Below, piece after piece: positions 6,787 to 59,208 of a stretch of 64,000 nt of DNA; positions within the stretch are counted from its first letter, which is position 1; every line of letters begins with the position of its first letter. Location of the stretch: positions 13,305,783 through 13,369,782 of the forward strand of contig CM026429.1 of NCBI GenBank assembly GCA_014871385.1, given 5' to 3'. The DNA is from Ceratodon purpureus (Eukaryota; Streptophyta; Bryopsida; Pseudoditrichales; Ditrichaceae). The position numbers and the translations under genes were made by a program. A model generated the notes under the pieces. That model was not told where the DNA came from. It was given only the letters and a program-made list of their open reading frames with translations, and did not search any database.

Positions 6787-6937
6787 CGAGGGTGTTAGGG
6801 TTTGGAGTTCCTTTTTGCGAACTGGGAGTAGAGAGTGAAAGAGCGGTGAGGTGTTTTTGTCTTTTCCGATTCACTGGCAGTTGGATTGCCGGGTTTCTTG
6901 CTGTCGGGTCGTAGAGGGAGAGAAGTAAGGAGTAGAG

Positions 6938-14800: not shown

Positions 14801-15144
14801 AAACATACTTGAATCATTGCTCTACCACGGACTGATAGATCATCATTAAGAAGTTCGACATACCGATTTCTCCAGAGGTGGCGGTCAGGATAAGAAGCAT
14901 CTGGAGTGGAAGGAGTACCCGAGGTCCCGGAATCCGGACCCCAACAATGATCATCTGTTTCTACGTCGGATTCCCCTTGTTTAGACACATCGTCGTCACT
15001 GCTGATATTCAGTGGAGACCTAGTCCCCAGATCCTGCTCAGACGGAGCGGAGTTGCTTTCATCAATTTCTTCATCTTCGTTCCCCAAGTGAGGCTCCGTC
15101 GGCGGGCAGCCGACGGGACATGTGCCAGCCAACGCGCCGTTCAC
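11876..15144 (-). CDS. DUF7869-type putative transposase, two exons
   Basis: Exon 1 is 15144..14014 and exon 2 is 13888..11876. The intron (14013..13889) has a GTAAGT donor and a CAG acceptor, phase 0, giving 1047 aa. The N-terminus is acidic and Ser-rich. A Cys cluster follows (SKRCCKDRCC), then the VCEVAWYIIHGVSKSAYYSY and HGN blocks that precede the catalytic part in this family. Exon 2 carries a second Cys pair (FSKCTECDFL), then HDKMD, LQLDNSAKDNKNR and VGHTHEDIDAHFS. Together these give three well-spaced acidic residues, as in RNase H-like DDE/D transposases. Family membership is from the known DUF7869 signature (QLDN...NKN, VGHTHEDID); calling it a transposase is inference. Both exons are open. 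The GTCGGC hairpin motif lies in codons 11-16, in the intron and at the stop, so the true start may be downstream of 15144. Confidence 0.75.
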
Positions 15145-22593: not shown

Positions 22594-24214
22594 ATGACGA
22601 GGCCTCCCTCATGTGCTGATGAGAGGGAGCAGGGGCTGAAGAAGGGACCGTGGACGCCTGATGAGGATCAGAAGCTGGTTGCGTACATTCAACAGCATGG
22701 TCATGGCAGCTGGCGCTCTCTTCCTATCAATGCCGGTATGTAGCAGTACTGGCAATATGTTGTGAATAGTGGATAGTGATATCTTTGTTGTTTGGAGCTG
22801 GTCCTAGGATGCTTTGATGTTTGAAGGTTGCTGAGACTAAACATTTATATGTTATTGCTGGTTTGCAGGTCTTCAGCGGTGTGGAAAGAGCTGTCGATTG
22901 CGGTGGACAAATTATTTGAGGCCGGACATCAAGCGGGGGAGATTCTCGCAGGAGGAGGATCGCATGATTGTGCATCTCCATGCAATTCTTGGCAACAGGT
23001 GAAATACTGACCCCTGATGTTCAGTCTCATTTCCATATAACATGTCCTGTTTGTCGCTACACCTTCGAATGAGAAGTCGCCGATCGAGAATGCGTATTAA
23101 CATTCAAATTTGGTGATGATGCAGATGGTCAGCCATTGCCAACCATCTGCCACGCCGAACAGACAACGAGATCAAGAACTACTGGAACACGCACCTCAAG
23201 AAGCGTCTGCTGCAAATGGGCATCGACCCCGTGACGCACAAATCCACATCAACGACGGAGGACCTCGACAGCTGCAGTATCCTCCCTTCTCTGTCACGTC
23301 CCGTGGTATCTTCCACGCTCTCACACATGTCCCAGTGGGAATGTGCGCGTGCTGAGGCCGAAGCCCGCCTCTGTCGACAATCCGCAACATCACCAACCTC
23401 AGATTTTGTACAGTCAAGCGTTCCACAACAGATCACCTTCAACACGGTGAATCCTAGGGGGACTCAGGATGCGTCCACCAGCTTCATGACCTCGTGGAAG
23501 GCGCAGGTTGCGGAGACTTTGCGTCCTAGCTTCGGTGTCGTGGAGCTGGACAAGACGCCCGCCAACCCCGTCAACCTGCAATCGTTTCTGCAAGACTGGG
23601 AGTCGTCTCTCCAGGGGCCGCAACAACCCACGTCGACATCACCAGGTCCATTTTCGGCGTACGACTCACCCATCAACTTCCCGGACTTCACCTCCAGCAC
23701 CGCGTCCGCAGTGGTGTCTCCCCAGTACACCACCCCGAGCCATACATTACCGTCGTCGGCCCAGATCACCGAGCGTCTCCTGGCGTCGCGTGGGTTCAGC
23801 AACGACATTTCGCTAATTCTACCCCCACCAACCAAAGTTTCCAGCTATAGTCTTCCAGGAGAGTCGAACCACTTTATCGATTCTCCCACGAGCATCCTCC
23901 AGGCCCCTGAATATGACTCTTCCTACACCAACAGCCCGTGCGTGAGCAGCAGCGGCGGCGACAGCTTCGATCTCATAGCACAGAGTTTGGGCTTGATTAA
24001 CCAGGAAAATGAACAGTCCCGGAGTAGCCTGAACATGTTTCCAGCTGAGCCGCCTTTCTGGTCTCGGCAGCAAGTGGCGATGTCGAACACGCTGCAACCA
24101 TCGGAGCCTTACTTGATTCTCCCGCAGCTGAATCCCCCGAAACCGAGCTTCATGTTGAGCCAAGTTGAAGTTCCGAACAACATACCGATCCCACAGTTTG
24201 ATTTTTTGTGTTGA
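22594..24214 (+). CDS. R2R3-MYB transcription factor
   Basis: Three exons: 22594..22735, 22869..22998 and 23125..24214. Junctions are GT-AG and the frames join exactly (453 aa). The 130-bp second exon and both intron positions are the classic R2R3-MYB arrangement. R2 reads [20 protein letters not shown] through [18 protein letters not shown]3 reads [20 protein letters not shown] through [18 protein letters not shown], with Phe replacing the first Trp as usual in R3. The bHLH-interaction signature is absent from R3. The C-terminal 330 residues are Ser/Pro/Thr-rich and of unknown subgroup, presumably an activation region. It should bind MYB core sites in the nucleus. An upstream in-frame ATG at 22507 exists, but [20 protein letters not shown] is the usual short MYB lead. 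The subgroup was not assigned. Confidence 0.95.
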
Positions 24215-28000: not shown

Positions 28001-29635
28001 CTATATTCTAGTAGGAAAAACACCATTGGTCTTCATGTAGGACATCAACTGGTCTGGCAGTTCTTTCAATAATTTCTTTGCCGCAGATTCCAGACTTCCT
28101 CCTTTGATGGGCACAAACTGAACAATGTCGCGAGCAGCGACTCTTCCATTTTGAGTGGTCAGCTTCTTCTTGTCAGAATCCAGGAAGTTCATTGCGCTAA
28201 AGTCAGCATTGCCTACACCAACAATGAGAAGCGAGAGTGGAAGATACGATGCCTCCACAATTGCTGCAATAGTGTCTTGCATATCGAGAATTTCTCCATC
28301 AGTGATAATGAGAAGCACAAAGTACTTGAGCTGTCGCTGATATTGTGCTGCAATGGAAGCTGCCTGCCTCACCACAGGAGCAAACCAGGTAGGCCCATAA
28401 AGCTCTACTGAGTTCACTGCCTGCGAATATACAGCCTCTATTCCCGCAATGCCTTCCACCTCGGGATTACTCACGTTGTTGTTCAGAGGAAAACAGTGTG
28501 ATAGAATTCCATTAACTTTTCCTCCAAAGCCCCAACAAGGAAAGTGTTTGTCGGTGTCATAAAACTGAAGAACCCCACCAACTGTTTGAATTGCCGTCTG
28601 ATAGGCATTGGGGCGTCGTCCGTATATATCAATGTAATGTAGAGAGCCTGGTGAACGAGGATCTCCATTTGATGCAGTGAAATCGACAGCTACGAAGAAA
28701 CTAATCTGACAACCACCCATGACATAGTCCAAGAAGTTGAAAACAGGGGAAATCTTACAGATACTTACAAATAGATTCCCTCGGCTCTTGTTTAGATTCT
28801 TGGAAGTTTTGGATTGTCGTGTGAGGTTCAATGAAGTCCTTTCCAGGAAATGCCTCTCAAGTTGATTGAGAGTAGTTTTGACCTCTCCAATGAGTTTGTG
28901 TTTGCCATTGCTGTTGTAGTCGAGGCACTCAACCAGTAACGTTTTGTCCTTGTTCCCGCTGCAAAGTTGTTGGAGATTCACCAAGAATGGTTTCCATGTG
29001 GGATTTAAATTATTCTGAATCACTTCGGTCTGGCAGACGGGTGTCCATGTGCCGTCTGCTTGCAACTTTGAAATCCTGATACACGGATCGCTCTTGGAAA
29101 ATATTTCTAAATTTTCAAGGTTAGTGCAACACAGAACCAGCTCAACCTCCTCAGGCCTTCCAGCTCCAGTTTGCACCTCTTCAGCACGGATTGTAAGTGT
29201 CCCACTCGGCCCTATCAAATCATTGACGTTCTTGAGGCCCGCTTCGAGGGGTCGTGTCAACTTCTGCCAAGGTGAAACGATAATCTCTGCAAGGTTGGTC
29301 CTAATCTCCCCCAGAAATTCCTGCTTCTTGAGCTTGAATTTGTCCGATGTCTTTTCTTTGTAATTTGAGTCTACATCAAAAACAACGAAACGGAGAGGTT
29401 GAACCTCCTCAAAGCGGTACTGTATGGTCAAATGATATACCCACTTGGGATTTAAAGTATTTGGTGTCGCTTCCGACCGTCCAAGCTCTATTTCCTTTCC
29501 TTCGGGATCGATTCCGTATGCCACCAGCATGGGGTCACTTGTGCCCATCACATCCCTGTTGCGTAAACCGCTTGCTTCAAACGACAATTGCAGTATTGAA
29601 CTTGGAACCCCGCTGGATGCAGCAGGCCAGGCCAT
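28001..29635 (-). CDS. Copine (C2-C2-vWA), single exon, 544 aa
   Basis: Copines are Ca2+-dependent phospholipid-binding proteins. Plant BONZAI members act at the plasma membrane in growth and defence. Here C2A spans about residues 12-140 (Ca-ligand Asp in RNRDVMGTSDP and FDVDSNY) and C2B about 150-285 (SKSDPCIRI, LDYNSNGKH). The copine-type vWA spans about 310-525, with the MIDAS signature VDFTASNGDP and RDIVQFVPIKG near the end. Length and domain order are normal. Two oddities: the frame has no intron, whereas flowering-plant copine genes known to me have many, so it may be a retrocopy. It also starts MAWPAASS, without the Gly2 that plant BON1 uses for N-myristoylation. A TTGTCCCAG acceptor-like sequence lies just before the ATG, so an upstream exon is possible, for instance the proline-rich frame near 31402-31623. 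No stop or frameshift interrupts it. Confidence 0.92.
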   Translation of the reverse strand: MAWPAASSGVPSSILQLSFEASGLRNRDVMGTSDPMLVAYGIDPEGKEIELGRSEATPNTLNPKWVYHLTIQYRFEEVQPLRFVVFDVDSNYKEKTSDKFKLKKQEFLGEIRTNLAEIIVSPWQKLTRPLEAGLKNVNDLIGPSGTLTIRAEEVQTGAGRPEEVELVLCCTNLENLEIFSKSDPCIRISKLQADGTWTPVCQTEVIQNNLNPTWKPFLVNLQQLCSGNKDKTLLVECLDYNSNGKHKLIGEVKTTLNQLERHFLERTSLNLTRQSKTSKNLNKSRGNLFVSICKISPVFNFLDYVMGGCQISFFVAVDFTASNGDPRSPGSLHYIDIYGRRPNAYQTAIQTVGGVLQFYDTDKHFPCWGFGGKVNGILSHCFPLNNNVSNPEVEGIAGIEAVYSQAVNSVELYGPTWFAPVVRQAASIAAQYQRQLKYFVLLIITDGEILDMQDTIAAIVEASYLPLSLLIVGVGNADFSAMNFLDSDKKKLTTQNGRVAARDIVQFVPIKGGSLESAAKKLLKELPDQLMSYMKTNGVFPTRI

Positions 29636-32245
29636 ACTGGGACAACCACCTTAGTGAGAGGTTTGAGAACGAAAATATACCCTCCCGTATCAAGACAACC
29701 CTTCTCAAATCCACCGACGGACAGAAACCACACAAACTAATGTTCGCCACTGATGCCAATGTTATATTTCCCACCAACCTGCTAGCTGCAGAATAATTGT
29801 CCTTGCCTTCAATGAGGTGGTTTGCAAACTTCTGGAAAAGATCAAATACATTAATTAGTCTTGAATCTCCGTTCCTTGCTCTCTCTGAGAAACGGGTACA
29901 ATGTGATCAGCCATATAAAAAAATATGTTAATGGCTAGGCATGTGAGGAAATTGTTTTTCATCCCAATCCTCATATACTTGGACTTCTTTAAGTATGTGT
30001 TGATTTTAGAATTGAAGGAAAACATAAAATAGAATCCTAATTATAAAGTAAGGATCTACCCCTCCCTCATCTGCAGGCATGAGCTCATGTTTGAAAACAA
30101 GCTCCACTGATGGACCAATGAGCAACACCACAGGAAGAGTAGATAATGGTTACGGTTTAGAAAACCTAATCACAATACGAAAAAAGAATGAACCATGCCA
30201 CCAGTGCAATTGGCATTAAAAGTCAACCGAATAAGAAAGTGAACCTCGATATGAACATCATCACCAATACAACACGAAAGACTTTTCAAAATGGGAGTCA
30301 CCTACTTCGCACTTAAGCTTACTATGATCTACACGACCGGTCTTCCCAAACCCTAAGCCAGCTTCGACCTGTTAATTCTCGAGTTGCTGAGCGTCTTCAT
30401 AGTTACCATTAGCTTTCCCAACGTTCACCAAAGGTCAGGGTTTAGGGTTTAACTAAAGCAATTGAGAATCAGATTCGACAGGAAAAGTTTTTCTTAAATC
30501 CACAATAGACTCACAATATTGTGGATTACTCTTAAATTACTCTTAAATTTGCTTAACTAATACGGTTCAACAGAAGACACAATTCAGACCCCGCTTACCC
30601 TCTCTAACTTCGACTTCACCACGTTGGTCGAGCAAGGTAATGGGTTTCATTCATGGAACTGATAAAACTCCTCTCAACCAAACCACCCACAGGAAAAAAA
30701 ACAAACCCAGTAGAAAGCCCTTCAATGATACTCCAAACAACCAACCAAAGAACGGCACACACCAACAGCCACACATTCCCACTCAAACGATGACCCTCAT
30801 CTCGAAGTCACATGACCAACACACATTGATCATCCAGTCACACCACTGATCTCCTCTACAAGTGCACCGCATTGTCAACACCGAACAATATCACATATAA
30901 CCCCAACAAACAACAACCCATCATGGAGCAACCACCGAGGCGAACCCAAAACAAACCAAATGATTCAAAGAAAGAGAAGCAAACTAGTAACCCACCTGCC
31001 AGTACTCACCCGTAGATCAAACCATGCAGATCAGTTTGTCAAGCTGATCGATCAATACTCCAGCACTAGATCGCAAACTCAATCGGCCGAACATATATAT
31101 ATCCAGCCTGCGAACGCGTAACTGTGGCCCACCGACTATTGCTAGAAAATACCGAACCGTGTCCAGTGCCGACGAACTAAAACCTCCAGATTTGTTACTT
31201 GGAAGGCCCGGACCAACTGCTGATCCTACTAGGGACTAGAATACATAAATCAACAAGCGACAAGATGGAAATGACCAAAATCAACAAGACTCCGTCTTAT
31301 TGTCAATGTAAAGTCATGATTTAAAAATTCGTATGAAATCGAATGCAGAATGATGGTTCCGCCATACGCGGTTCTCTGCATGGTTGTCGGCGTATAATTG
31401 GTCAGGGGTAGGGGCGTTCACAAGGTGGTGGCACAGAGGCGTACCCAAGACCGCTACTATACTGTGCGTGTGACCGAGCGGGAGGGGGTTCGTTTGATTG
31501 GCTGAAATCTGGAACACGGTTAGGGGGTGTCGGATCTGATCGCGTGGAGGTTGCGTCTGGGACCTGGGTGGGTTCCGAGTTTCCGTATGCGGGGGTGTTG
31601 GGAGGGGGAGGGGCGTGGTACACGAGAGGACGCTCTTTCGGTACCCAGGTCCTGATTCCTGGAATGTGTAAGGTAGAGATGATTCCCGTCAGTTTAAGCC
31701 ATTCACCATATTTGGGATTGAGAAAACTATGGGGATATTATTTATACAAATAGAAGCTAGGTTGAAAATCACAAATCTGATTTTTTAATATTTTTTCGAA
31801 ATTTATCAAATTTTCATGAATATTTGAAATGCAACATTGTAGACTACTATTTCCGTGAGTAGGTATATGCAATACAAAGATTCTTGCATGGAGAACATGA
31901 TAGGTTGTTATACAATCTGCTGAGTGTGGTAGTCAGGTGCTTTCTGCTTAGATATTGGTGCACTAATAGGCCACGGAATTAGAACCCTCACGGGAATACC
32001 GATCTCTACCTTATTGGAGGTGTTGAGGGTTGGGAAGGATTTTGAGTTTGGATTTTAAGTTATTCTGACTTGTATTTGACTTTTTAACATCAAGGACGAG
32101 AGTTTTCTTTGATGTGTGTTGCACATGGGTACATATTCCCTACATATTATAGATTCTCCTTGTAGGGTTGTTGAATTTGTAGCACATTTTTATTGCATTG
32201 GTTATGTTTAGGTTTTGAATAGTGTGGTTATTTATGACTTCGTAA
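29636..32245. other. Region upstream of the copine gene
   Basis: No supported gene. A minus-strand frame at 31402-31623 (73 aa, rich in Pro and Ser, ending PPCERPYP) sits in a small GC-rich patch. It could be a 5' exon of the copine gene or chance. TATATATA occurs near 31096. A short telomere-like GGGTTTAGGGTTT occurs near 30438. Confidence 0.35.
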
Positions 32246-42800: not shown

Positions 42801-45580
42801 ATGGAGGGTAAAGAGCAAGCAGTTGAGACATCATGTGAGGATGTTACAAGTGGCGAGTGTGATCCTCAGGAAAAAAGTACAGCACACGTATCCTCTGCCA
42901 ACGCAATGGATTTATTAAAGGAAGAATATGGAGCTCTACCATCCAAAGGATCCGAACTACCGTTAATTTCAGTGGAGTTCGTCCAAAAGCCTGAGCCTGA
43001 AAAGACTGCAGCAACTTCAGATCTGTCCCTTCCGTCAGGTATGGAAGCTTCCAATTTAACTAATTATGGTCCGGCCAGATCAGATCCAGTAGATAATGAT
43101 ATGCAGATGGTGGAGACGACAAGTAAGGTTGTCGATGAGCCAAGAACTTCAGAATTGGACGTTAAAACAGATTTGGGTCAGGTCGCTCAGGACTTAGAAG
43201 TCGGGCATAATGTAGAGGGTGTTGAACACATTGATTCACATGCAGCTATTGCTGCAGTGCTTCCTACACCAGGAAGCTTACCTGTAGGTCACACGGAAAG
43301 TGACCCCGCCATTAAATTTGGCAGGGATTTACCAGAATTTCAAGTGGCTAGCATTGTTAGAGAGAGAAAGTTACAGGGAATTATTTTAGATGTAAAATTG
43401 GAGATCAGCAAGGAAGAAAGTCTTGATGGCCAGACATCCGCATCCAGACAACAATTGAGTGAAGTCATTTCAGAAGGTTCAAGGGGCAGAGATTTGGACA
43501 TTAGTAGTGTGAGTTCTCCTGATGCAGCAGAAGGAAGAGATCATTCTGATAGAGATTTGATTATGGAGTCAAACGAGTCAAAACCTTTGACTATAAGTCC
43601 TGCAAAAGTGAAGGAAGAAATCATAGAATATGTTAGGGATAGAAATTTGCAGGAGATCATGGACAGTGCTCCCAAATCTAGCATTAAACTAAAGGCAGAG
43701 CCAAACAGCCCAGTCGAGTCCCTTGGTGGAGGTCTGGAGTCCAAGATTCCTTCAAGCCATGAAGGGAGTGACAGTGTGCAGGAGCGGTACAAGGATGGTG
43801 GTGATCATAGTGGAGAACGTGAAGAAAGACGGCAACGATTGCGGGATTACGGAGAAAGCCAGATCGATAAGAGTGAAGCTGGATCACCTGCAGATGGGCA
43901 TGATGGAATGTCTCCTTCAAGTAGACGTAATCGACGTGAACCTCGGGTTCCTGGGAAGTTGGTCCCACTCCTCGAGGTTCTTCGCAATATTTGCAACCAC
44001 AAGTCGGCATACCTCTTCAAAGGAAGGCCAGAGGTCAGGAAAATATCTCATGCACCATCGTCCCCGTTGCAATTCCTTATGACAGCACATTATTACTTCA
44101 GTGCGCATGCAGAGAGTCAGAGTAGGGATTTTACTTCAAGAATATGGTGGATATGCAATACATTGGGCTCTTATAATTCGCCAGATTTTTTCTCCAGCTC
44201 TTCAATTGAAGTGAGCTTGTTCGGAAAGGAGTCTTTTAAGGGCCTAAATTGTTGATATTCAGCATGTAGAAGTTTTCTCCAGGAATCTATGAGGAGCTCT
44301 ATACGATGTAAAGATATTATGATTATAGCCTTGCAGCTGTCTGGTACTGCAAGTGGGTGCAGAGAAACCGAGGAGGAACCGAAAAATAACAGCTTCACAT
44401 TGTCTAATATGCGATGGCTGTCTATATGCAGGACCCTAGATACAATCTGCTCATTCGGAGACATATGGATTTGACTAATGTGCGGGCACGGCTGGAGGAG
44501 GGGGTGTATTCTGGCAGCAGTGAGTTCTTCCGTGATCTACTACTAATTTTCAACAATGCAATGGTGTTCAATCCTTCTGGTTCAACAGAGTTCGTAGGTG
44601 CAAAGGCCCTTTTGACTGAGGCAACGAAGGAGCTGAACAGAATTTCCCAAACCGAAGCATTATTGAAGAGAGACGGACCTGCCACACGAACGAGGGAGTT
44701 GAAGAAACCAAAAACAGCAGTAGCGGTAGTTGCTCCTCCTAAGGTAGTCACACCTTCCCCAATCGTTGGAACCTCCTCTGGGAAATTGATGGTTTCAAAC
44801 CCGTCAGCCACAAGTCTGCCTGATACCGCTACCAGGAAACGACCCAGCACTCGGTCGGGGGCACTAGAAACTTCCACCAATTCCGGGGCTGTAGTTGATT
44901 CAGAGGGTGGAACAGCACGAAGTGCAAGTGTAAATATAATTGCTGGCCCAAGCACTAGTCGCGCCGAAGAAACAAGGGATTCACGTGATGATGACCAAGA
45001 GGTTAATGGCAGTTTGAAAGGTGGAAAGAAGCTCCATGTAGGAGGTGGTTCTAGTAGGGGGACAACACGAAGTCATGAAGAACTGCAGGAGGGAACATCG
45101 TTGAAGATTGGTGTGAGCAAGGCTTCAGGTAGACCAAAGTTGAGGGACCTAAAAGATGCATCAGAAGTTGCAAAACGACCAGCAGTTTCTGCAAAGGCAG
45201 CAGGGGCAGGGAAGCTGAAGGCTGAGAGAGAGAACGAAAGAAAGAGAGAAAAGGAACGAGAGTTGAAGGAGAAAGAAAAATTGAAGGTTAGTGAAAGGGA
45301 CGACATTGATGACGACGACTTCCTCCTCCGCAAGGGGAAAAGCCTTGCTAAGTTGAAAGACCAGGAAATTATCCAAGAGAGAGTTTCTGTCGCAAAGCCT
45401 GCATCAAAGGCCAGAGCTTCAACAGCAGCAGTTCGCTCAGCTTCTAACTCTCAGGACACGCCTACGTTGAGCCTTGCACGTCCAGTCCGGGGTGCTGCAC
45501 GTAAAGCGGCTGCTGCAAGCTCTGCAAAAGAAACTGCTCGGGTTCCGGAACAGCAACCAAAGAAGCGAGTGAGGAAATGA
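39817..45580 (+). CDS. SANT-bromodomain nuclear protein, 1497 aa
   Basis: Five exons: 39817..40026, 40606..40673, 40803..40904, 41069..44033 and 44432..45580. All junctions are GT-AG with matching phases. Residues 20-70 form a SANT/Myb-like fold (ELLLVSAVKRHGVNNWSLIA). A charged coil follows (RKIRVAHLKRELEHYDGSIG, KIKRLKAEKAGD). Then come about 950 acidic, Ser/Glu-rich residues with little order. The bromodomain (about 1096-1190) is split by the last intron: VPLLEVLRNICNHKSAYLF joins DPRYNLLIRRHMDL, then FFRDLLLIFNNAMVFNPSGS holds the acetyl-lysine-pocket Asn. The tail is basic and ends KKRVRK, a likely nuclear signal. The order SANT, coil, linker, bromodomain is that of Arabidopsis DNA-binding bromodomain proteins of the At2g42150/At2g44430 type. 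It presumably reads acetylated histones. The linker is far longer than in those relatives. ATG 39760 is an alternative in-frame start. Confidence 0.9.
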
Positions 45581-46956: not shown

Positions 46957-47287
46957 TTAGTCATTTTTCAATTGTTATGTGGAGTCTATAGTTTAAAACG
47001 TTCAACTCAATATTTTATTTTATTTTTTACGAATTCCACCAGCAAAAGAAAAAGAATTCTAGTGCACTTTAAAAACATATTTCGTAGACAACAACATGAA
47101 TAAGTCATAAATTTTTAAGATATTCACTCAAAATAAATCTATTCTGCTAAAATTTTCACGGCTATTTGACATACATTCTTCACAAAATTATCGAGTACTT
47201 CCTAAAGATTTTCCTGAATCTGGCATGGGCCGTAAAATTTTCATGTGCCTAGGTTTATCGCAAGTGTTGAAAATTTCAAATGACTAA

Positions 47288-47706
47288 AGGTATGTTCCCA
47301 CTTGGCCTTAGAGGGGGTTTTAAGAGGGGGTGTTATCTCCATTAAAAAGTGTGTGTTCCCACCTACATGCTTTAGTAATTACCAATCCTACATGGATGTC
47401 CACATGGCACACTTTTAAGAGTAGGTATTAGTTAATATTTAAGAAGACAAAAGAGCTTTGAGAAATAGTAGGCAATACTTATGGGGCCACCAATATTGGC
47501 AAGATTCTCTACTTTTCCTCTCATAAGAGTGGTCTTATATATATTGTCCCATTTGGGGGACCATTACATAATCCCCTTCCTATTGATAAGGCCTTTACGA
47601 ACCTCATTGATTACACCTTTTCCAAAAAGTAGGCATTGCTCCCCAAATTGTGGAGTTGTTAAATTTTTAAGCACGTTCTTTGCTAAGGCCAAGTGGGAAT
47701 GGGCCT
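47288..47706. mobile_element. PIF/Harbinger-like MITE, 419 bp, TAA target duplication
   Basis: TTCCCACTTGGCCTTA at 47295-47310 is exactly inverted at 47684-47699. The outer bases AGG/CCT also match, and TAA flanks both sides (47285-47287 and 47707-47709). Its right-hand T plus the TAA form the TTAA used by the piggyBac element next to it. Confidence 0.7.
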
Positions 47707-47719
47707 TAACCCCTTTTGC

Positions 47720-48576
47720 ATCTTTGCGTTGTCAATACGGTAGTCTTCTGGGAGCGTATGAGGCAACTGTTCCGGCTACAGACGTGATTTAGGGGAGGAG
47801 GGAATGTGATTTTTGAGCTCGAATTTTTGCGGGATACAGACAGTGAGATCTGCGACGTGACCCAGCAAAGACATCGGGGAAAAAAGTCACACAATTCCGT
47901 GTAGAAATTCGACAGTGCGGGGGGGTGCTCGGGAGGGAGAACGTATGCTTCCATCTCGCGTCAGCGTAGAGAACGTGCAGTCCTGACGCCGGGAGGTACG
48001 GGGTACGAGGGCCACGCAGTGACGGTGGCTTCATGGCCGTGCGAGGTTACCGGTGTCCTTCTGACCTGCAGAGCCGGTGGCGTGGAGGAAACTGACGTCA
48101 CCGGGTTGACATGGCAGAAGCAGGACCATCGAGAACCGGCGTGCTTAGAAGGGGTACTGCCTAGATATCCATGTCCCGGGACACTGAAGTCGTTACTGCA
48201 CGGGAGAGACGAGGACTCGCCCCCAGCGGATTGGCTAGAATCGGAGCACATCACACCTAAACGAAAAAGGTTTAGGACACATAGAGCTGTGCAAAATCAG
48301 GAACATGGCTTTGAATTTACAAGTAACAGAATCCGCAGAGTAGAGGTCGTGTAAGACCTATGAGTTCTAAGTGCAACTGTCCTACCACGCTGTGGTTGCT
48401 AAAAACTGTACACACACTCTCAGACGGAAGCAAAGGAAATTGCACGCCGCTACCATGACGACCCGAGGAGGACGATCAAAAAGACATCACAGAACTCCTC
48501 CTACTGTCTATACTACATTCAACAAGTCCTTCAAGCTGCCGAGGACACTTCCTGCAGACCAGCTCCATATTGACAG
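47720..48576. other. Left part of the piggyBac element, unassigned
   Basis: GC-rich DNA between the left end and the B3 gene. A plus-strand frame at 48019-48354 (111 aa, with a basic TPKRKRFRT stretch near its end) is open but has no recognised domain. It may be a 3' UTR or an unrecognised exon. Confidence 0.3.
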
Positions 48577-49342
48577 TCACAGCTTGCGAACCTCGAACTC
48601 CGCTTCACCGGCCTCCACAAATATCAGAGTATCCCCCATCTTCAGGCGGTTGAGGGCGACGAAGTCCACCCACCCTTTGGTGAAGTGGCAGAATGTTTGC
48701 TTCTGGGAGTAGTACCGGGCCGATTTTACCTTCACCGTTTCTCGAGGACCACAGAGATTGTACCAGGGGCCGTCGAATTTGACGTCGCCTACTGCGCGCC
48801 AATAAGCCGTGGGGACGTCCTGTTCAAAACAAAACAAGCCAAGGAACAGCGGAGGGCTTGTGAGGCATCGCAGTGAGAGAAAACGGCGTTGGTAGATGGA
48901 AGCCACGTACCAGAGGTACCGGCAGCGACAGCGGGAGGCCATGCGGAAGGATAGGATTCGGTTCGCGACTTACCAGCCGGGTCGACGATGCAGGCCGAGT
49001 ATGGCAAGCCCGCAGCGTCTTCTGAAAGTGTCGGCGCTCTTCCTCGTACTTCGGCGGCGGGAGCACATTCGGCGGTGACGAAGCCTCGCTGCGGTGAATG
49101 ATGGCTACGAGCGTTGCACTGTCCACCTCCTCGAAGACGAGCAACGCTGGGAGAGTTATCACGGCGTCGGTGAGGAAGCGCTGGTAACCCCTGCCGACAG
49201 AGCGCCAGGCGGTTGTCCCCGAAGAGCTCCCGTGCTGCTCCATCCGGACTGGCCACTGCTTGGGAGTCTTCAACGACGTCATAAGGCTGCAATTCGGCGT
49301 GGCGGGCCATCCGGTTTTCCGAGTGAACGCAGGCGGAATCTC
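48577..49342 (-). CDS. B3-domain protein carried by the piggyBac element (partial model)
   Basis: Two exons are well supported. Exon 49342..48974 (123 codons) starts after a CTTGTAG acceptor and ends at a GTAAGT donor. Exon 48819..48577 (80 codons plus stop) starts after a T-rich TTTTGAACAG acceptor. Both are phase 0. The first encodes a B3 fold: EIPPAFTRKTGWPATP, QWPVRMEQHG, GRGYQRFLTDAVITLPALLV, VFEEVDSATLVAII. The second holds a further B3 domain: VKFDGPWYNLCGPRETVKVK, FCHFTKGWVDFVALNRLKMG, DTLIFVEAGEAEFEVRKL. Both follow the plant B3 pattern W-x-V ... GW-x-x-F ... L-x-x-x-D/GD-x-L-x-F. B3 domains are plant DNA-binding domains, here of REM-like style. The 5' exons lie between about 49.4 and 50.9 kb and were not resolved (a donor CAGCTG|GTAACC occurs near 49463). 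It lies downstream of the transposase in the same orientation. Confidence 0.65.
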
Positions 49343-50949
49343 CTACAAGTGAAATGACACAAAAAAGGTCAGACCGGGGGGGACCAGAGTACAAAGCCCG
49401 AGGCGATGGCATTCGACGGTAGCATGGCGGGCAGGGGGGAGGAGGCCAACGGGGAGGGGGTTACCAGCTGGGAGCTGTGGGCCTGCGAGGAGAGAAGCAC
49501 GGTGAAGTACACCACTCGGCACTCATCCAGTTCGGCCACCTCCACCTGTGGATGTGTGTCCATGTCGATGATGGATCTCCCTCGAAGAAATGCACCTGCA
49601 CCAACTGGCAACGGAGCAATGTGAGAATGCAGAGTCTGCGAATGGAGAAAAGCCAGAGCAATCGGGAGAATGAAGCTGACGAGTGCACAGAAAAGGGAGA
49701 GGCAAACAATATGACAGGGGAAGGGAAGGAGTAATGGCACCTGGAGTAGCGACGGCACTGGAGTCTGCGTATCACTCCGATGGCGGACAGGGTGGACTAG
49801 GGCCATTACAGCAACCGAGAAGCTAATACAGATAGGTACGTCGGATAATGAGCAAACCATCACGTCCGCGATGATGGAGATCCGGGGCCGCGGCGGCGAA
49901 TGATGACACAGATCCTCATGATTGTTCGCCCGGGATATAGATTGCATAATAACTCCTGCATTTCACTATCACGGGTCAACACGACGACACCATCGAACAT
50001 CACTAGCACATTCCAGGCGGATAAGGAATCATGACGACATCCCAACGAAGTGACAGATGGGACAGGGGATTCTAAGAGCAAGTACCGAAATCAAAATTCA
50101 AACGAAGTGATTAGTCGGTGAACGGACCTATCAAATACATTTCAGAACACTGCTACGAATACGGCAACGTCATGGACATAACCTTGTTCTCTGTGACAGA
50201 CACACTCAGAGGCCATAGCCATCACGATCCACATCGTCAGAGAAAACCTCCACACCCGAGGTACAGAGACACGCAAAGGACATGTGTTAAAACATTACAG
50301 ATCGGGAATGGGAGGTTATCCGCTGCTCCTGCACACAGAGCACACAACCTCAAAGTCCGATTAGCCAGAGCAGAATCAAGGTATTAGCCGAGGTGCTTCC
50401 ACTGCTGGAGCGATGAAGTGTTGCAGCGGACCGTTTACAGAGGAATACATAAGTCATCCGAGATGTCTGAATTAAAAAGACGTTACAGGGTTCCACAAGC
50501 GTCTGTAAGGTCGCCTGTAGTGGCATTTACAAAATAAGTCACTGCTTCAAAAATCATCCAAGTAACTAGAGTCCCATTGAAAAAAGAGTGCCCATGGCGC
50601 CTACAAAAATTAACAAGCTCTGTTCCGGCTGAAGCAGCGAGCTTCTTCGTCCGATTGCCCTCACTGAAATCCTGTGTGGTTCGTAGTGGCTGAAATCCTG
50701 ATGCAAGACGACATCGGAGATTGATACTCCCGGATCAATCATGCGAGAACTTTGTGGAAATCGAGCTTCCAAACATTTCAGTAGACTGCCTCATATTGAT
50801 GCACGGCGACTGAGTGCCCTTGTATTGCACGGATCCGGCCCCCACCATGGGGGCAGAACGGCACCACGAACCACTGCCCGGTTCCCGCTCCTGCGCAGCC
50901 CCAATGTACCCTGTCACCCAAACAAGCCCACCTTTAGATACAAATTCTC
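49343..50949. other. Between the B3 gene and the transposase gene
   Basis: Several overlapping frames exist, of which the minus-strand 49369-49947 frame (RSIIDMDTHPQVEVAELDEC...) may contain 5' exons of the B3 gene. From about 49.95 to 50.95 kb there is no good frame; this should hold the transposase 3' UTR and the B3 promoter. Confidence 0.3.
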
Positions 50950-53857
50950 TCAGCGACAAACAGATTCGTGGTGCGTTAGGTAGCACAGTTCCTTGCACAT
51001 CCACTGTGGACCGCAGGCAGCGCAGTGCCAGCGCTGCAAGTGCCCACAGACTACGCACTTGCGACGTAGCAGCGTCCTGACGGGGCAATGCACAGTGGGG
51101 GCCCTCCTCCACCTTCGTAGTGGGACTGCGGCGGCTTTCCCCCTGGCCGCAACAGCGGCTTCGATGAGATGTTTACCAACCGCAATTTTGAAGGCTAGGT
51201 GCGGCTTGGCGCGCAGCCCTAACTCTTCCATCTCCCGCACCCAGGTAACGTAGGCATTGACGAGGGACTGGTCCACTATGAAATGGAAAATTTTAATCCA
51301 CCATTTGTGGCACCTCAGCTGACTCGAATAGCTTCCCCTGAGCTGATCTGTTACGTCTACGCCACGCATGTACTCAACGTACTGCGTGTGCATGGGGGAG
51401 GATGGAAGGATCAACCTTCCCCGGAGTCCTTTTTTGCGCCGAAGGACCTGTACATCCGGAGCCCAGGGCGGCGCTGCTGTGCTGAGCAGGGTAACGAGCT
51501 TCGTATCCTGCCATGACACGACTCCCATCTGCCGATGCACATGGGTTCTGATAAGCATGGAGCCGCGTTCCTCTGGTACCGTTTTCCGGTTAAGTCCTCC
51601 TGGCAGATTCTTCGAGCGTAACTTCACGGTCCCTGTTGCCCAGATTCCCCTGACCATAAGGTCGTGGAATAAGTTGACAGAGGCAAAAAGATTGTCCACG
51701 ACGAGGCAGTGGCCACGCCCCTCAAGACCGTCTACCATTCTCTGCACGACATGGTAGCCAAGACCATGCTCACCCACACCCGTGCCCTCTCCAAAATACA
51801 CCTCGATGCGCCACACGAACCTGCTCTTCGAACTTGCAAGCATCCATATCTTTATTCCGAAGCGTATTGGTTTATCCGGCATGAATTGCCTGATAAAGCA
51901 GTACTTACCCTTGTACGGGACCACGCATTCATCAACCGTGATCTCCCGTTCCAGACTGTATATTGACTCTGAGACCTCCACAAATCTGTCCACCAGCCAG
52001 CGTGTCTTCGCAATTCTGTCGAAGCGTCTATCCTTTGTGTCCCTGACTATTTCTTCGTTGTCTACAAGGTGTAAGCAGCCCAGGATCTGTTGCCATCTGC
52101 GGAGACTCATTACACTTGAGATCAGCTTGCAGTGGACCAGGGGCTCAGTAACCATCCAGTAGTGTTTGACTGAAGGCAGTCTCTTGCAACCCATGAGGAT
52201 GCAGATGCCGATCCACCCCCTGATGTCACTACTGTCGACATCCCTCCATGTAGGACCTCCCTTCGTCACAGCCGGCTCTGTCCCCGTAGGCAAGATGACC
52301 GCCCTCGCATACCTATTAGTCTCCCGCGCTATGCGCTCCACAGTCTGGTCATCCCAATACTTATCGAAAATACGATGTGGCTGTGGGACTCCAGTTTCTG
52401 TCCTGGACTTCAACCCGGGCTGGGGACCTGTGAAGTTATCACGGCTTCCTATGAAGTCAACGGAAGCTGAGCTCCAGGACTCCCTCCGATAATGCCTTGC
52501 CAACTGAGACATATCCAGATACGATGGAGCGAATGCCTCGTCCCGCATGCACCAGTTCTCCATCCCCGTGGGCTCGAGGTCGGGGTCGTCATCCTCACAG
52601 TCCACCTCAAAGTCCGGATTCAGCAGACTCTATGACGTCTTCGAACTCGCACAACCATTCCCTGTCACTTGAGTCGTTGCCTTCTGCTACAGAGTCCTCT
52701 CTCTCTTCCCCGCTCTCATCTGAGTCACATTCCGGGACCTTCTTTTTACCTGTAACCATGTAATCAGGAAGTGCGTGACTTACCTTCGGGAACGTCATTC
52801 TGGCCGTTGAGTTCTGCGTCCCGTCGATGCCTTCCTCATCTTCCGGGACATCGTAGTCCGCGATGGGCAGTCCCGGGGGCTGTGAGCCCCATGGCGTTGC
52901 TTCCCCGTTGTCTCCGCAATGCTCGGTCTCCCCTGGCAGCCCATCCGTCCCGCATGGATCCCCGTTGACAGTTCCACCCGACGTACCCGCTCCACTCGAA
53001 GTCCCTGCCCCATCGGGAGTACCTCCCCCGTTTTGAGTAACCACTGCAGGTCGCTGGCCGAAGCAGTGCTGGCGCTTCTGCCAGCCATATCCATGCCCGC
53101 CCTCACTTCCCACCGCTCTAATGTCGGGCCCAGTCGCGACCCGGACGTCATGGACCTCCATATGGCGTTCGCTGTCTGCACCGCCGAGGTCCACAATAAT
53201 CATCTTCTTCCCGGTCCCGATGTTGATGCCCTCACCCACGATGTCTCCCTGAGTCCACGACGGGGTGTCTCCCGTGTGGAACGAATACTCAGAGAGGTAC
53301 CTATTCGGCACCAACACAGCCCAACCGCGTCGCGTGGCGTTCCAGTCACTGTACACATGAGCGTACCGCGCCGGCACCTCCTCCGGTTGCAATGCAATCG
53401 GCCTCTTTCCCACTGACCCGCCAGGATGGGTTGCCTCAAAGCCGTCCACCTTCCTAACCGGTTCGTAATACTTCCAAACATCCTCCCTGAAGACGTGCTC
53501 CCAGAGATCAACGTTGCAAGTCTCCATGGATCCGACTGTGTGTTGCAATTCGGGTGCAAGCAACTCTTCTACCCCGTCATTTTCCGATGGTACATGAATG
53601 TTTGCCAGGACTTCGATGATTGCAGCATCGTCAAGTGCCTTCTGCCGCCGGTAGCCTTCCTCCAAGTACCACGCTCGCCGGGTGATGACGCCACTCGTGG
53701 GGTTGGGCGTGATACAGTCAGGAACCCAGCGGGTAGGCTTCCTCGGCTTATGAGCTGCTGCCTTCCCTTTCTCCGCTTTGGTCGGCCGACGTCTTCTGCG
53801 CCCTTGCGCTGCACACGTTCGCCACGAATTAGGCATATGGCATTCGACGTTCTAAAA
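50950..53857 (-). CDS. piggyBac transposase, catalytic core plus N-terminal domain
   Basis: The catalytic part (50950..52605 and upstream) shows the DDE_Tnp_1_7 signatures in order: WIGICILMGCKRLPSVKHYW, TVDECVVPYKGK (first Asp), VVDNLFASVNLFHDL (second Asp) and GVDVTDQLRGSY (third Asp), then KWWIKIFHFIVDQSLVNAYV. The C-terminus is a Cys-rich domain (CVVCG, CAACG, CKELC, final C), as in piggyBac. A 409-aa frame precedes it (53836..52607; MPNSWRTCAAQGRRRRR, later EVPARYAHVYSDWNATRRGW and an acidic DSDESGEERE end). It is in another frame and stops at 52607. The two join in phase 0 if an intron from GTAAGT at 52783 to AG at 52630 (154 nt) is removed; a one-base frameshift is the alternative. The acceptor TTTTAG at about 53858 opens the N-terminal exon. 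No stop breaks the core, so it could be active. Confidence 0.8.
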
Positions 53858-54263
53858 CCAGAGAGTACCCCACATTCCTCGTACAGAGAGAGACGAATAC
53901 GTGAACCATTCTGCTTGACAATCTTACCTCGTGGCGGAGTCGGTGAAGTTGGAGGAGGAGGACCGAATGCCCGTGGGGAGTCCCACGCCGGCATTGGTGT
54001 TTGCGTCTGCGCATTCCCTTCGACTGCGTTTTGATCCATCTCGCGTGGCGCTCCCCTTTTCCGTGTCACTGGCGTCACGTGCCCGACCTTGTCCCCGAAG
54101 AGCTCCCCTCCTTCGCCGCTTGCATTCATCCGCTCCAGCTCCATCACCTGCGGAGGCTGCAAATCCACGATAGGTACGTCAGTCCTATACAGCCGAGGGT
54201 CATGTATGGAAAACTTAGCCAAACTTCAAGGAAGGAACCCGTTACACAGATTTGGGGACGCAC

Positions 54264-55459
54264 CTGTTTCTTTGTCCTCGGTTTCCGTTTCGCTGGAACC
54301 TTCGGCGGTGGTACCTCTGATGGCAACCCCTGGCCGCACTGAACCTCGAATCCCGATTCGGGGTCCGTCTCCATCATCCCCTGTCACCTCAGAAGTCAGG
54401 AAAAGAAGCACACATTTTACCTTCACCTTGTTCTCTCTGCGGAATCGGATTCTGTATGAAGTCATAGTGCGTTGCAGAAACGTACCACGTGCTTGGCTCT
54501 GCTCTTGCGCTTCGCCGGAGGCTTCCGGATGGGGACGCTGAGTAATGTCTGCTGTCCCTGGCTGCAGCGGATTGGCTCCTCTCCATGTAACTCCACTTCC
54601 GGTGGTACCTGGAAGGAGACATACATTCGCAAGGTAAGTCACGGGATAGGTGTCAGTGAATTTTTGAACTTGCACAGGCATCACGTCCAATTGAGAGCAA
54701 CGCAACGCACCGTCTGTTTGGCTCGCGATTTCCGCACCCGACGCTTCTTTGGCTGCGGTATATTCGCTATGCCAATCTCCTGTTGGGGGGCCGTTCCGAA
54801 CGACGCCATCTGGTTGACATGGTTACTTTAGTCTGGTCCGAAACACGTGTAGCCCTCAAGAACAGGGCCTCCGAAGTTCAAACATCCAGAGCTGACTTCC
54901 ATATCAATACTGCGGCCCGAACGACATGCACAGAAAACCATGCCCAGGTTGCACAGCAACATATGCATCTCGGCTCACTCACCTGTAACCCGTCGGAGCA
55001 CAGCACCCCGGTCCCCTGAATTCCACCTTGCGCTGTTGTCCCTATGGCTCTCGATTTGCGCACCCGTGGCTTCTTTGGCTCCGGGACTCTGGCCCCTCCA
55101 ACCTGCGTCAGCAGCAGAGTCTCCACGGTCTGCAGACGCAAATATCAGAGTATCCCCCATGTCAGATAGCTTATGAGACACAATCAGCGTATACATGGTG
55201 CGGGAAATCCTATTTGATGGAACGACCTCTGGACACAACGGCGTAAACCGTAGAGCATGGCACCGATCCCCAAAAATCGTGGAGATGTGATTTCGCTCAC
55301 CTGGTCCACTTCGGTGACTGTCTTCCCGGGTGTCTCTTGAATTCCTCCGAGGGCCGGTGTCCCTTTCAGCTGAGTAGATTTCCGCAGCCGTGACTGCTCG
55401 GGCTGCGGAATGTTTCCCACGACAATCTCCGCCAAGGGGATCCTCCCGCCCACCTGTAC
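54264..55459 (-). CDS. Array of phase-0 exons with basic RKSRAK repeats, 5' part of the transposase gene
   Basis: Five minus-strand exons with AG acceptors and GT donors are each a multiple of three: 55459..55301 (53 codons), 55129..54983 (49), 54809..54711 (33), 54608..54486 (41) and 54380..54264 (39). Each encodes a variant of one motif: IPQPEQSRLRKSTQLKG, VPEPKKPRVRKSRAIGT, IPQPKKRRVRKSRAKQT, IRKPPAKRKSRAKHV and VPAKRKPRTKKQ. The first two also share the block GTxAxGGIQ. The array looks like tandem exon duplication giving a chain of basic, AT-hook- or NLS-like DNA contacts. It leads in the same direction to the transposase core, with another open segment between (54150..53930, VMELERMNASGEGG). 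The splice join from that segment to the 53857 exon was not resolved. More exons lie upstream to about 56.1 kb. Confidence 0.6.
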
Positions 55460-56300
55460 CTGCGTCATACATGCAAAAGGGGTTAGTGAAACGTTGGACT
55501 CTCTCGGAGCCACCCACACAGAACCCTAAACCACGCACAGTTTACGAGTCTTGCTTTCTCCCACCCCGAGCCAGTTTGCAATCAAGAAAACTACAAATGC
55601 AAGAGGGCACCTGAAGGGAACTAACCTCTTCCCCGTCGGGATGTATCCCCCCCGTCCGCCGAATTCCGCTGTGGCCCTGCGATTCCGATGTGGAAGACAT
55701 CTTGGCTCGGGCAAGTCTCTTCATGTCTGATTTCTGTCGGCGATGGATAGTACTGGTGCCGTAAAAGTCCTCGAATGAACTCTGGGAAGTGCTGTCTCTC
55801 GCACCAGCCGAGGATTTTTGCTGCGTGCCTGTACCAGAGGTACCGGCAGCGTTCCTGGTGTCCAAAATCCCCCCGACGGTTCCACCTCGCAGGCCGCGGC
55901 TGCGCTAAAAGGTACTCGGAATCGAGCAATGCGACAGCCTTCCTGCTTCCCTCCTCTGATGCTCCTTGAACCCTAAACCATCGGTAAAGCTCCGCTTCCA
56001 CTCCCAGCAAGTGCTTCGTTTCCTCTTCTCCTCTCTCGGAAACTGTATCACCCATCAGTAACACTGGAAATGCTGAACCATAACGCGTAGATAAAAGCAG
56101 AAATCCCAGAACATCCACAACCTCCCGCCACGCAATCCAACGCCGCCAAAACGAATTGTGCCTCCACCTCGTCGTCCTTCTCCAGCCATCGCCGTCCATG
56201 GCTGCGCCTCCGCACAACCACGACCCCACTCCACCACTCCGCCACTCCACCCACAACAGAAACAAGTAAAAAATCCGCCCAGCACACTTCCGCAATCGGC
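55460..56300 (-). other. 5' exons and promoter region of the transposase gene, unresolved
   Basis: A likely exon reads NAAGTSGTGTQQKSSAGARD, then FEDFYGTSTIHRRQKSDMKR, ending HPDGEE at a GTTAGT donor near 55625. Its acceptor may be TTTTAG near 55912. An upstream frame with MGDTVSERGEEETKHLL near 56050 may be the first exon. These are suggestions from open frames and splice-like words only. Confidence 0.3.
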
Positions 56301-56688
56301 TCGCTCACCAAACCGTATCACGCATCCAAGAAACCCTGATGATGAAATGAACAAGCTGAGTCGCTGACGTATCCCAACTGATTTACCACCTACGCAGCCG
56401 GTCACCCCAGCCCACGTCGGATACCCACGAAGTACTAAACGTGACGTCACCGTAGAATTCCGAGCGTATCAGAGACAAGTCCCTCAGAGGACAAATTCGG
56501 GATACAAATCGATGCCCCAGTCGCTGTGATTATCAGAAAATTATGCGATAAATTGCAGAAGGTAGCGTGAACTTGTGCCCACAACATCCTAGTTTACTGT
56601 TTCCAAAGATTCCCTCACCATCCCACCTTCCCGACCGATAAACAGTGAACCGTAGGCCATTTCTGGCAGAAAAAGCAAAAGGGGTTAA

Positions 56689-58422
56689 GCATTCAACTGA
56701 ATGGGCTACATGTGAGCCCCTCATAAAATGCCAACTCACACTCAAACTGGGTGAAACGCATTTGACAGACCCGGACTCAAGGAGACACCACAAAGACACC
56801 AATTGGACTCCCCACTGTCCGACAAGTGCAAAACACGGACTCAAACACTAAAAAAATCAAATCTGACCATCTCCGACTTCACTCCCTGCAAACCCCTCGA
56901 ACGTTCCGACCCATGGAGAAGCACCCAAATCCGTCACTCCCCCCAAAACCAACATATAATATTCGAAGACCTCCAGCAACTCAAATGTACACACTCTGTA
57001 GACAACAGATACCATATCTACAGCAAGAGTGTTCTCCAAGCCTGCCCGCGCGGCCCAGGATAGGACCGAGGCGAATAAGGCGCACACAAACCCGTCACTA
57101 TACCCAAACCCGTCACTGATGTTTCACATTCCGGAGAATTCGATGGTAACGGATTTTCGGGGTATCGTTCCACTGCGTCTAAATAATGCTACTGTTCCCA
57201 AAAACCAACACTGATTCATATCCAACAGTTTTACAGAATGTACCACATGAGTAGATTTGAAGGATGGTGACGGTGTTGGGAATCCGCGCTCTTCGCCTGC
57301 CCGGCCTGCCCGCCTTCAACCCTCCGGGGTCCCTCGTAAGCGTCGCGTTCCTCTCCCACGCGCGGCGTCCACCGGGCGCCGGCCCGCGACCGGGCGCGGG
57401 ATCCCGCCCACGGCACGATCCGCCGAGCGGCGACCGGGAAGCTTCGCCTCCTTCATCCCAAAACGCTCAAAATTCTCTCTCAGTGGGGGAGATGGGTCGC
57501 AGGCACCGGCACTGAATTCGTCACATCGTTGCAAAAAAACGCTCTCTCACAGATTTAATGCACTCTAGAGAAAGCGCCACTCGTTTTTGACGCCAGCTTG
57601 GATCAGAAAAGTTGCGAGGATTAGGGCTAATTGGGGTTTGCTTCTGGGGTTTGTGCAAACTTCCGGAATTTAATCCATCGTGGTGGGCTTCGAGGACGGG
57701 ATCGTGGAGAGAAGGACAGAGGATTTGGAATCTTGGTGATGTGCGTGGTAGTTCGTTTTGGGGCGGTTTGGCAGGGAGTGAAGAGTTTTTGGGGTTGAGT
57801 CGGTTTATGGTGTGACATTGGGGATGCGCATGTGGGGGATGTGAGTGGTGGGTGGAGTTGGAGTGAGCGCTGGATGTCGTGAAGATTGGCACAGATTGGC
57901 GTAGATTGGCGCAGATTGGAGCAGATTGGGATAGATTTGAGTGGATTTGGAGGACTCTTCAGGTTTTGGTGGAGACGCTGGTGGAGGATTTGGAGACTGG
58001 TGGGGAAGGTTAGTTGGTTTGGTTTGATTTGATTGTGGCGTTTTTTTGTTTACGGTAGAGTTGGGGTTGGGGTTATGTTTTAAGTTTTTGCGTTTGGTGG
58101 CTTTTGGTTGTTCTGTTGAGGTTTCTGGGGTGGTGAGGGTTGTCTTATTATGTTTGGGAGAGATTTGTGAATTTGTGTCGTGTTAGGGTTGTTCGGGTGG
58201 TTATATGTGATTCGTCGTGTGATGGTTTTTGTTGTTTTGAGGTTTAGTAGTTGGTTTTGGTGCTTTTGGAAGTTGATGAGTGTGTGGGTTGGATTGCAGG
58301 TTTTTGAGCCATTTTTGAAGAACTTGCGGTTGAGTTGAGTGTAGGTTTCGAGGGTTTGTTGTATGGTTAGGGCAAGAGGGTGATTAATTGGATTCTGGAG
58401 GGTGGAGTTTAGAATCAAGGGT
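56689..58422. other. Intergenic DNA and leader of the RING gene
   Basis: 57,285-57,440 is an extremely GC-rich patch, probably a promoter island. 57,600-58,400 is G/T-rich on the plus strand and probably the transcribed leader of the RING gene. A TTGGATTGCAG acceptor-like site near 58300 could end a leader intron. Confidence 0.4.
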
Positions 58423-59208
58423 ATGATCGAGAGAACTGCCGTGCGACAAGACGAAGCGGAGAGTAGGTCGGAGAAATCTGGTGCAGATTGTGTGCATGAG
58501 GAGAGCAGGATGAAGCATGGAGAAGAGGGAGCCAGCTCTCAGGTTCATGCTGGCCCGAACCCGGCGGGGGGTGAAGAGGCCTCTGCGGCAGGCTCAAGCG
58601 ATCAGGGGGGGAGTTTTGATTGTAATATCTGCTTAGAGCTTGCGCAAGATCCTGTGGTCACTCTTTGTGGGCACCTGTTCTGCTGGCCTTGTCTGTACCG
58701 ATGGTTGCAGATGCACAGCATCTGTCAGGAATGCCCGGTTTGCAAAGCCAGTGTTGAAGAAGAGAAGGTTATTCCACTATATGGCAGGGGGAAGGTGAAT
58801 TGTGTGGATCCTCGCACGAAAGCTGTTCCAGGCCTCAACATTCCTCAACGCCCATCTGGGCAGCGGCCAGAGACTGCCCGGCAGGCGGAGCAACACTATC
58901 ACAATAGTGGTTTCAATTTTATGGCTGGACCAGCGGGCCCTGCTGCCACAGCACGGTTCGGCAACATCACGCTTTCGGCCGGATTCGGACTGTTTCCTTC
59001 CCTCTTTGGCTTCCAATTGCATGGATTTCCTGATACAGGTGGGCTGGGAGGAGGTCCAGGCATCCATCTGGGGACTGCGGGTGGATTAGCCGGCAGCCAT
59101 ATCCATCCCACTCCTCCGACCTCGCCTGATCAGCAGCAGGAGGCACTTCTTTCACGACTGCTGCTTCTCCTTGGTGTCTTCGTGATTGTTTGCCTGCTTC
59201 TCTTTTGA
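58423..59208 (+). CDS. RMA: RMA-type membrane-anchored RING E3 ubiquitin ligase
   Basis: Single exon from ATG at 58423 to TGA at 59208, 261 aa. A charged N-terminus leads to a C3HC4 RING: CNICLELAQDPVVTLCGH, FCWPCLYRWL, CPVCKA. The next block, EEKVIPLYGRGKV and IPQRPSGQRPET, is the conserved extension of RMA proteins. The middle is Gly/Phe-rich (FGNITLSAGFGLFPSLFGFQ). The last 20 residues (SRLLLLLGVFVIVCLLLF) form one tail-anchor membrane helix. Plant RMA1-like and animal RNF5 proteins sit in the ER membrane and ubiquitinate ER substrates. Length, order and tail fit that family. A GTG-initiated extension to 58402 is not needed. Confidence 0.93.
   Translation: MIERTAVRQDEAESRSEKSGADCVHEESRMKHGEEGASSQVHAGPNPAGGEEASAAGSSDQGGSFDCNICLELAQDPVVTLCGHLFCWPCLYRWLQMHSICQECPVCKASVEEEKVIPLYGRGKVNCVDPRTKAVPGLNIPQRPSGQRPETARQAEQHYHNSGFNFMAGPAGPAATARFGNITLSAGFGLFPSLFGFQLHGFPDTGGLGGGPGIHLGTAGGLAGSHIHPTPPTSPDQQQEALLSRLLLLLGVFVIVCLLLF

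Follow-up and report, generated by a model that had tools for sequence, protein, structure and literature searches.

A DNA transposon that carries a second gene beside its transposase raises the question whether this gene works for the transposon or is merely carried along by it. The case considered here is a piggyBac element of the moss Ceratodon purpureus, which occupies positions 47706..56688 of a 64,000-nucleotide stretch of DNA (the window, G000:C9:13305783-13369782), has its genes on the minus strand and measures 8,983 bp including both TTAA target duplications. A preliminary description had reported a piggyBac transposon in a plant, with introns and a second gene; the host is indeed a plant, and the second gene proved to be a three-exon gene encoding a protein with two B3 domains, B3 being a domain of plant regulators. 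Genome-wide searches covered the 362-Mb KC19 assembly of C. purpureus, strain GG1. The most probable reading, to which we assign a probability of about 0.8, is that the element is one copy of a large Ceratodon piggyBac family whose long form consists of a transposase gene and a 3' double-B3 gene between CCCCTTTTGC ends, and that the B3 protein would bind the element's own DNA and help its expression or transposition. Rather than being a passenger captured recently, the B3 gene has a long history in this moss piggyBac family as an accessory gene maintained by selection.

Ends and target sites of the element

Both ends consist of TTAA followed by the terminal inverted repeat (TIR) CCCCTTTTGC. 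The transposase-5' end is located at 56675..56688 on the minus strand and the B3-side (3') end at 47706..47719 on the plus strand; in the letters of the window these read GCAAAAGGGGTTAA and TTAACCCCTTTTGC, respectively, and are mirror images. No other mirror pair of TTAA plus ten bases spaced by more than 1 kb exists in the window, and 60 windows simulated with a first-order Markov model contained no pair of this kind 1-20 kb apart. The 14-mer of either end has matches throughout the genome: TTAACCCCTTTTGC was found 32 times in forward and 30 times in reverse orientation (reversed-pattern control, 1 and 0). These 62 exact TIRs form 16 close convergent pairs, with a spacing of 1.6 to 11.5 kb, and 30 single ends, one TIR pair 46 kb apart having been counted as two single ends. 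All 16 paired copies were read, ten of them long (the window copy included) and six short.

TTAA is present on both sides of all 16 close pairs. Since it was built into the search pattern, independent support for the ends comes from the point where the similarity between copies stops. Similarity runs exactly from TTAA to TTAA in the pairs C11/C4b (mean identity 96.9%), C12/C8 (85.5%), C2a/C8 (82.4%) and C10/C4b. It extends 1 base beyond TTAA in C10/C11 (99.3% identity) and at most 13 bases past the end in the remaining pairs that reach one, except for C4m, whose left flank is the end of another element. The short TIRs, which start with C as in other piggyBac elements, are the limits of homology between the family copies. 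The TTAA-flanked mirror ends of the preliminary description, which had also proposed comparing them with other copies in the same genome, are thereby borne out: they recur genome-wide and the similarity between close copies starts and stops at TTAA.

The left end of the window copy abuts an element resembling a miniature inverted-repeat transposable element (body approximately 47288-47706; within 47285-47709), the inverted ends of which share TTCCCACTTGGCCTTAG exactly, with TAA on both sides. As the TTAA target is made up of the last T of this element and TAA, the piggyBac copy appears to have inserted at the border of an element that was already there. The predicted empty-site sequence of the locus, with a single TTAA, is ...GGGCCTTAAGCATTC..., and a search for empty sites with the joined flanks of C2a and of the 1.6-kb copy on C6 matched just their own flanks. 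An internal 15-base TIR-like sequence (55472..55486, minus strand) was considered as a true end and rejected, because its exact 10-mer is found inside none of the nine other long copies whereas the outer pair recurs genome-wide. At G000:C4:5040905-5042576 two elements appear to share one TTAA (TIR in reverse at 5040905 and forward at 5040915).

The B3 gene, its linkage to the transposase and its conservation

The three exons of the B3 gene are all on the minus strand. Exon 1 (49465..49563) has its start ATG at 49563, exon 2 (48974..49342) encodes most of the first B3 domain and the start of the second, and exon 3 (48577..48819) encodes the second B3 domain and includes the stop at 48577-48579. 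They join at GT-AG sites to give a protein of 236 amino acids with two B3 DNA-binding domains, recognized by Pfam PF02362 in two stretches (40.7 bits, gathering cut-off 30.1). This exon model is independently supported by the annotated Ceratodon protein M758_3G094000, which is of equal length and 68% identical to it over 100%. A profile search returned 19 B3 relatives, and all nine of those with an organism name are from Ceratodon, on chromosomes 3, 5, 12, U and V according to their locus tags. Searched against PDB with E values of no more than 1, the family profile retrieved eight different sequences, every one a B3 protein, the matches being weak (best 0.0026). The splice positions and a motif of exon 1 recur across copies, with some borders changed or outside the match in C12 and C4b.

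When searched directly, ten out of ten long paired copies contain transposase-core sequence and B3 exons on one strand, with the B3 gene 3' of the transposase; the transposase of C10 is truncated and has no N-terminal part. Two genome-wide lists, both lower bounds, extend this to the dispersed loci. The transposase list holds 78 matches (the best 78 of 1,150 candidates scored), and the B3 list was drawn from 191 matches (the best 150 of 644 candidates scored, 150 listed), these 150 stretches merging into 104 or 105 loci. A listed B3 is found within 9 kb of 34 of the 78 listed transposases, always downstream (34/34) and on the same strand in 28, while random placement gave a mean of 0.41 and a maximum of 3 in 500 trials (the lengths of four contigs being approximate). 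Seen from the ends, a listed B3 lies on the inner side, no more than 3 kb away, at 22 of the 62 exact TIRs, and in 21 the gene points at that end, 20 at a distance of 845-1,290 bases and one at 2,221. The only B3 pointing away, together with both cases of a B3 outside, belongs to the C4 site with the apparently shared TTAA. A subfamily with the B3 on the opposite strand, downstream of the transposase, was noted at six loci on C1, C5, C6 and C11.

Synonymous sites are saturated or nearly so between the main lineages of the family. Among the 12 pairs of B3 genes with fewer than 1.6 synonymous substitutions per site (dS), the ratio of nonsynonymous to synonymous rates (dN/dS) is 0.11-0.36 in ten and 0.59 in two. 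B3 distances follow those of the transposase (Mantel r 0.941, reached in 0 of 5000 permutations), and the two trees contain the same two main copy groups. From the low dN/dS, this co-divergence and the recurring splice borders it follows that the B3 gene has been maintained by selection over a large part of the visible history of the family.

Possible role of the B3 protein and alternative explanations

The B3 protein probably binds DNA of its own element. It would attach to the subterminal or promoter region and, once bound, may aid the expression or transposition of the element, comparable to what the second genes of certain other plant DNA transposons do. Two motifs with a fixed position are candidate B3 sites. 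The first is a subterminal box, TGGCCTACGGT, at 56649..56659 on the minus strand, 30-31 bases inside the transposase-5' end. It is exact in 11 of 13 copies and its TGGCCTA part is present in 13 of 13; three additional short copies have it as well, two with exact TGGCCTACGGT and one with TGGCCTACGCT. Each element has a single copy of the box at base 30. The second motif, GGTGACC, was found at bases 280-291 in 8 of the 13 copies. Motif counts in the element ends gave no clear target array apart from these two positional motifs. The fact that the B3 gene was kept intact by selection suggests that these moss elements have put a plant regulator to work for themselves, and the protein could be a co-factor of transposition, an activator of transcription or a protein that counteracts silencing. 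Copies with a broken transposase, such as that of the window, would depend on transposase from intact relatives in order to move. More tentatively, and with the odds somewhat against it, the moss piggyBac lineage may long have run with B3 as a regular second gene, recognising its own ends or promoter and lifting host silencing. If this is true, many annotated Ceratodon B3 proteins, whether encoded on autosomes or on the sex chromosomes U and V, would be transposon proteins.

Several observations weigh against B3 as a working part of the family. As to selection, both pairs with a dN/dS of 0.59 include C4b, which has stops; the low value of C11-C10 (dS 0.02) is based on very few changes; and the pairs involving the window copy (B3 dS 1.68-2.57, dN/dS 0.12-0.29) are near saturation, none falling below a dS of 1.6. 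As to linkage, the B3 is on the opposite strand in 6 of the 34 pairs, and for 44 of the 78 listed transposases the B3 list contains no locus within 9 kb. Three of these 44 (one on C11, two on C4) do have a B3 by direct search; some transposase copies may truly be without a B3 partner. Conversely, 62 of the 105 listed B3 loci lack both a listed transposase and an exact TIR in their vicinity. Ten single-TIR loci examined over 9.8 kb contained both genes in five cases, B3 only in two, the transposase N-terminus only in one and neither in two, and among four more single ends in 3-kb loci (about 1.5 kb inside; L001, L002, L005 and L008) B3 was present just in L008. Both genes are missing in five of the six short paired copies and one B3 exon is kept in the sixth. 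Moreover, the AlphaFold model of a B3 relative is poor (predicted local distance difference test, pLDDT, 37).

The alternative that survives best is that B3 counteracts silencing in the manner of VANC: it would bind the non-coding DNA of its own family and remove host silencing marks with no direct help to transposition. We regard it as possible, if rather doubtful. Second genes of plant transposons can act in this way, as the VANDAL elements of Arabidopsis with their VANC protein indicate in the accessible part of the source (PMC10398659). The moss protein is of a DNA-binding type, it is found in a plant host and its family is large, with at least 78 transposase loci. Like VANDAL, the moss element is a plant DNA transposon with a second gene, and VANC is described in that part of the source as binding DNA of its own family (PMC10398659), as the moss B3 protein is presumed to do. 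The two elements belong to different superfamilies. Moreover, the VANC protein is not known to have the B3 fold. VANC targets are tandem repeats, again according to the part available (PMC10398659), whereas the window copy has no such array: Tandem Repeats Finder (minimum score 30) reported two minor rows in it, neither of them a VANC-like target array. The single box at base 30 of each element fits a transposition or promoter site equally well.

An accessory function of B3 is also preferred to the explanation that the gene is a passenger, that is, a host regulator that a piggyBac element captured once and has transported since without benefiting from it (Pack-type capture). A B3 gene probably does originate from a plant genome, since B3 belongs to plant regulators. 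Gene capture by plant transposons is known as well, as far as the available part of the source goes (PMC13317346). Nevertheless this explanation is improbable, given that B3 is in ten of ten long copies although the main lineages are synonymously saturated, that its dN/dS is low, that it co-diverges with the transposase and that its exon borders recur. Still less credible is a B3 gene that is a separate mobile element, or a host gene, merely adjoining piggyBac copies. The 62 of 105 listed B3 loci that stand alone could be read in this way, but B3 is inside at the 22 TIRs mentioned, 21 times pointing at the end and with its exceptions at the C4 shared-TTAA site, and the similarity of whole elements, B3 included, stops at TTAA. 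Least probable of all is a domesticated locus in which B3 serves the host: the window copy does have open B3 exons beside a broken transposase, but related genes exist at 105 listed dispersed loci, copies such as C2a combine an open transposase frame with B3 exons, and a host-level reason for the selection is unlikely as the copies are dispersed transposon loci.

The transposase, known systems and neighbouring sequence

The transposase core (50950..52629, minus strand) is an open reading frame matching Pfam DDE_Tnp_1_7 (E 3.5e-75, 253.9 bits, cut-off 22.4). In PDB it matches piggyBat (4.1e-29) and 6x67 (7.3e-20), the latter presumably T. ni piggyBac, with the acidic residues aligned. D583 and D662 are invariant and D775 and D778 are conserved in at least 90% of 32 relatives; we take these four to be the catalytic residues. 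A Cys/His-rich C-terminus is present in the window transposase and in its relatives. Upstream of the core there is a conserved N-terminal part without a Pfam match (52607..53851, minus strand), which in the window copy is in another frame, the transposase frame being broken near 52.6 kb. Because relatives align straight through this point, only the core frame can be called intact in the window copy. C2a has the N-terminal part and the core in one open frame of 1,042 amino acids, and 33 of the 78 listed transposase loci have an open frame of at least 900 amino acids with no stop within the match, the length in the family being about 900-1,000. A transposase intron at GTAAGT near 52,786 was rejected since relatives code continuously through the site. 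Further upstream (54200..55900, minus strand), candidate exons with repeated basic stretches such as PKKRRVRKSR are likely, their splice pattern being not proven; the region has three 54-base repeats at intervals of about 325 bp, with comparable stretches close by.

The Pfam and structure matches agree with the assignment to the piggyBac superfamily in the preliminary description. Its intact transposase core holds for the core frame but not for the N-terminal part, and its complete element holds for the two ends but not for the whole transposase. Its recent arrival, suggested from base composition, is not supported. Guanine plus cytosine (GC) content is 0.53-0.56 in all ten long copies regardless of their divergence, so that the contrast with the flanks is a trait of the family. 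In addition, the window copy shares only 66.9-68.9% DNA identity with the nine other long copies in the aligning parts and its transposase frame is broken. The closest of the other listed transposases, itself partial, has 86% protein identity to it.

A database search with the transposase, in which the 8,000 best candidates were scored, gave 72 relatives. The eight among them with an organism name are animal proteins with 25-30% identity, and the relatives with at least 46% identity are all among the remainder. A 39-row tree combined six Ceratodon copies with 33 of the 72 relatives. In this tree, which has several long branches, the moss copies and database relatives formed a clade of 25 rows, supported at 100/99 and separate from the animal rows that bear a name. 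No relatives were confirmed in IMG/VR (three scans) or in GTDB genomes (two scans). C6 holds 27 of the 78 listed transposases. An enrichment on the V chromosome, which we take the 'VG' in the locus tag KC19_VG011500 of C6 to mean, was considered and dropped, as this share is not striking for 30% of the genome.

The moss element resembles the piggyBac superfamily (T. ni piggyBac, piggyBat) in its TTAA target, C-starting TIRs, DDE_Tnp_1_7 core and aligned acidic residues. It differs in a conserved N-terminal extension of about 400 amino acids, in the B3 second gene and in belonging to a sequence clade separate from the named animal proteins. With plant B3 proteins (ARF, RAV/TEM, At1g16640) its second product has in common the B3 domain, found twice by Pfam, and profile matches, albeit weak, to B3 structures only; unlike them, it is a short (236 amino acids), double-B3 and transposon-encoded protein with many dispersed copies. 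PIF/Harbinger, CACTA and Mutator two-gene elements likewise combine a transposase with a DNA-binding accessory gene, and to our knowledge their accessory proteins are not B3 proteins.

The preliminary description had noted that piggyBac is best known from animals and not often described in plants. The superfamily is known mainly from animal elements, but it has already been listed for a fern (PMC6890710), for plants (PMC10794571) and for 'all taxonomic groups studied' (PMC4438587), as far as the accessible parts of these sources go. As it was already listed for plants, piggyBac in a plant is in itself not new. A literature search on piggyBac with B3 domain, moss or Ceratodon found no such element by title or abstract, most subscription papers being outside the search, and the word piggyBac is absent from a Physcomitrium transposon paper. 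The B3 second gene in a piggyBac element appears to be new. It adds a two-gene architecture to the superfamily, which also serves as a genetic tool, with a plant-type regulator domain maintained as an element-encoded gene, and some annotated Ceratodon B3 proteins may be transposon genes. It should be interesting to use this tractable moss to find out why several plant DNA transposons have a second DNA-binding gene, and whether its role is in transposition or in silencing.

Three perfect direct repeats, about 22, 21 and 19 bases long, link the B3 side of the window copy to its transposase 5' side (48618=55139, 48907=55831 and 49213=54089). They have no exact copies in the nine other long copies, and the longest repeat in 100 simulations was 16 bases; they are possibly short filler copies from gap repair. 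Elsewhere in the window, a GC-rich stretch contains an element-like gene with a DUF7869 domain (11876-15180, Pfam 7.2e-44) and a long open frame without a Pfam match (6929-9136). The host genes around the element (23120-24214, 28001-29650, 44408-45580 and 58384-59208) encode MYB, copine, bromodomain and RING proteins.

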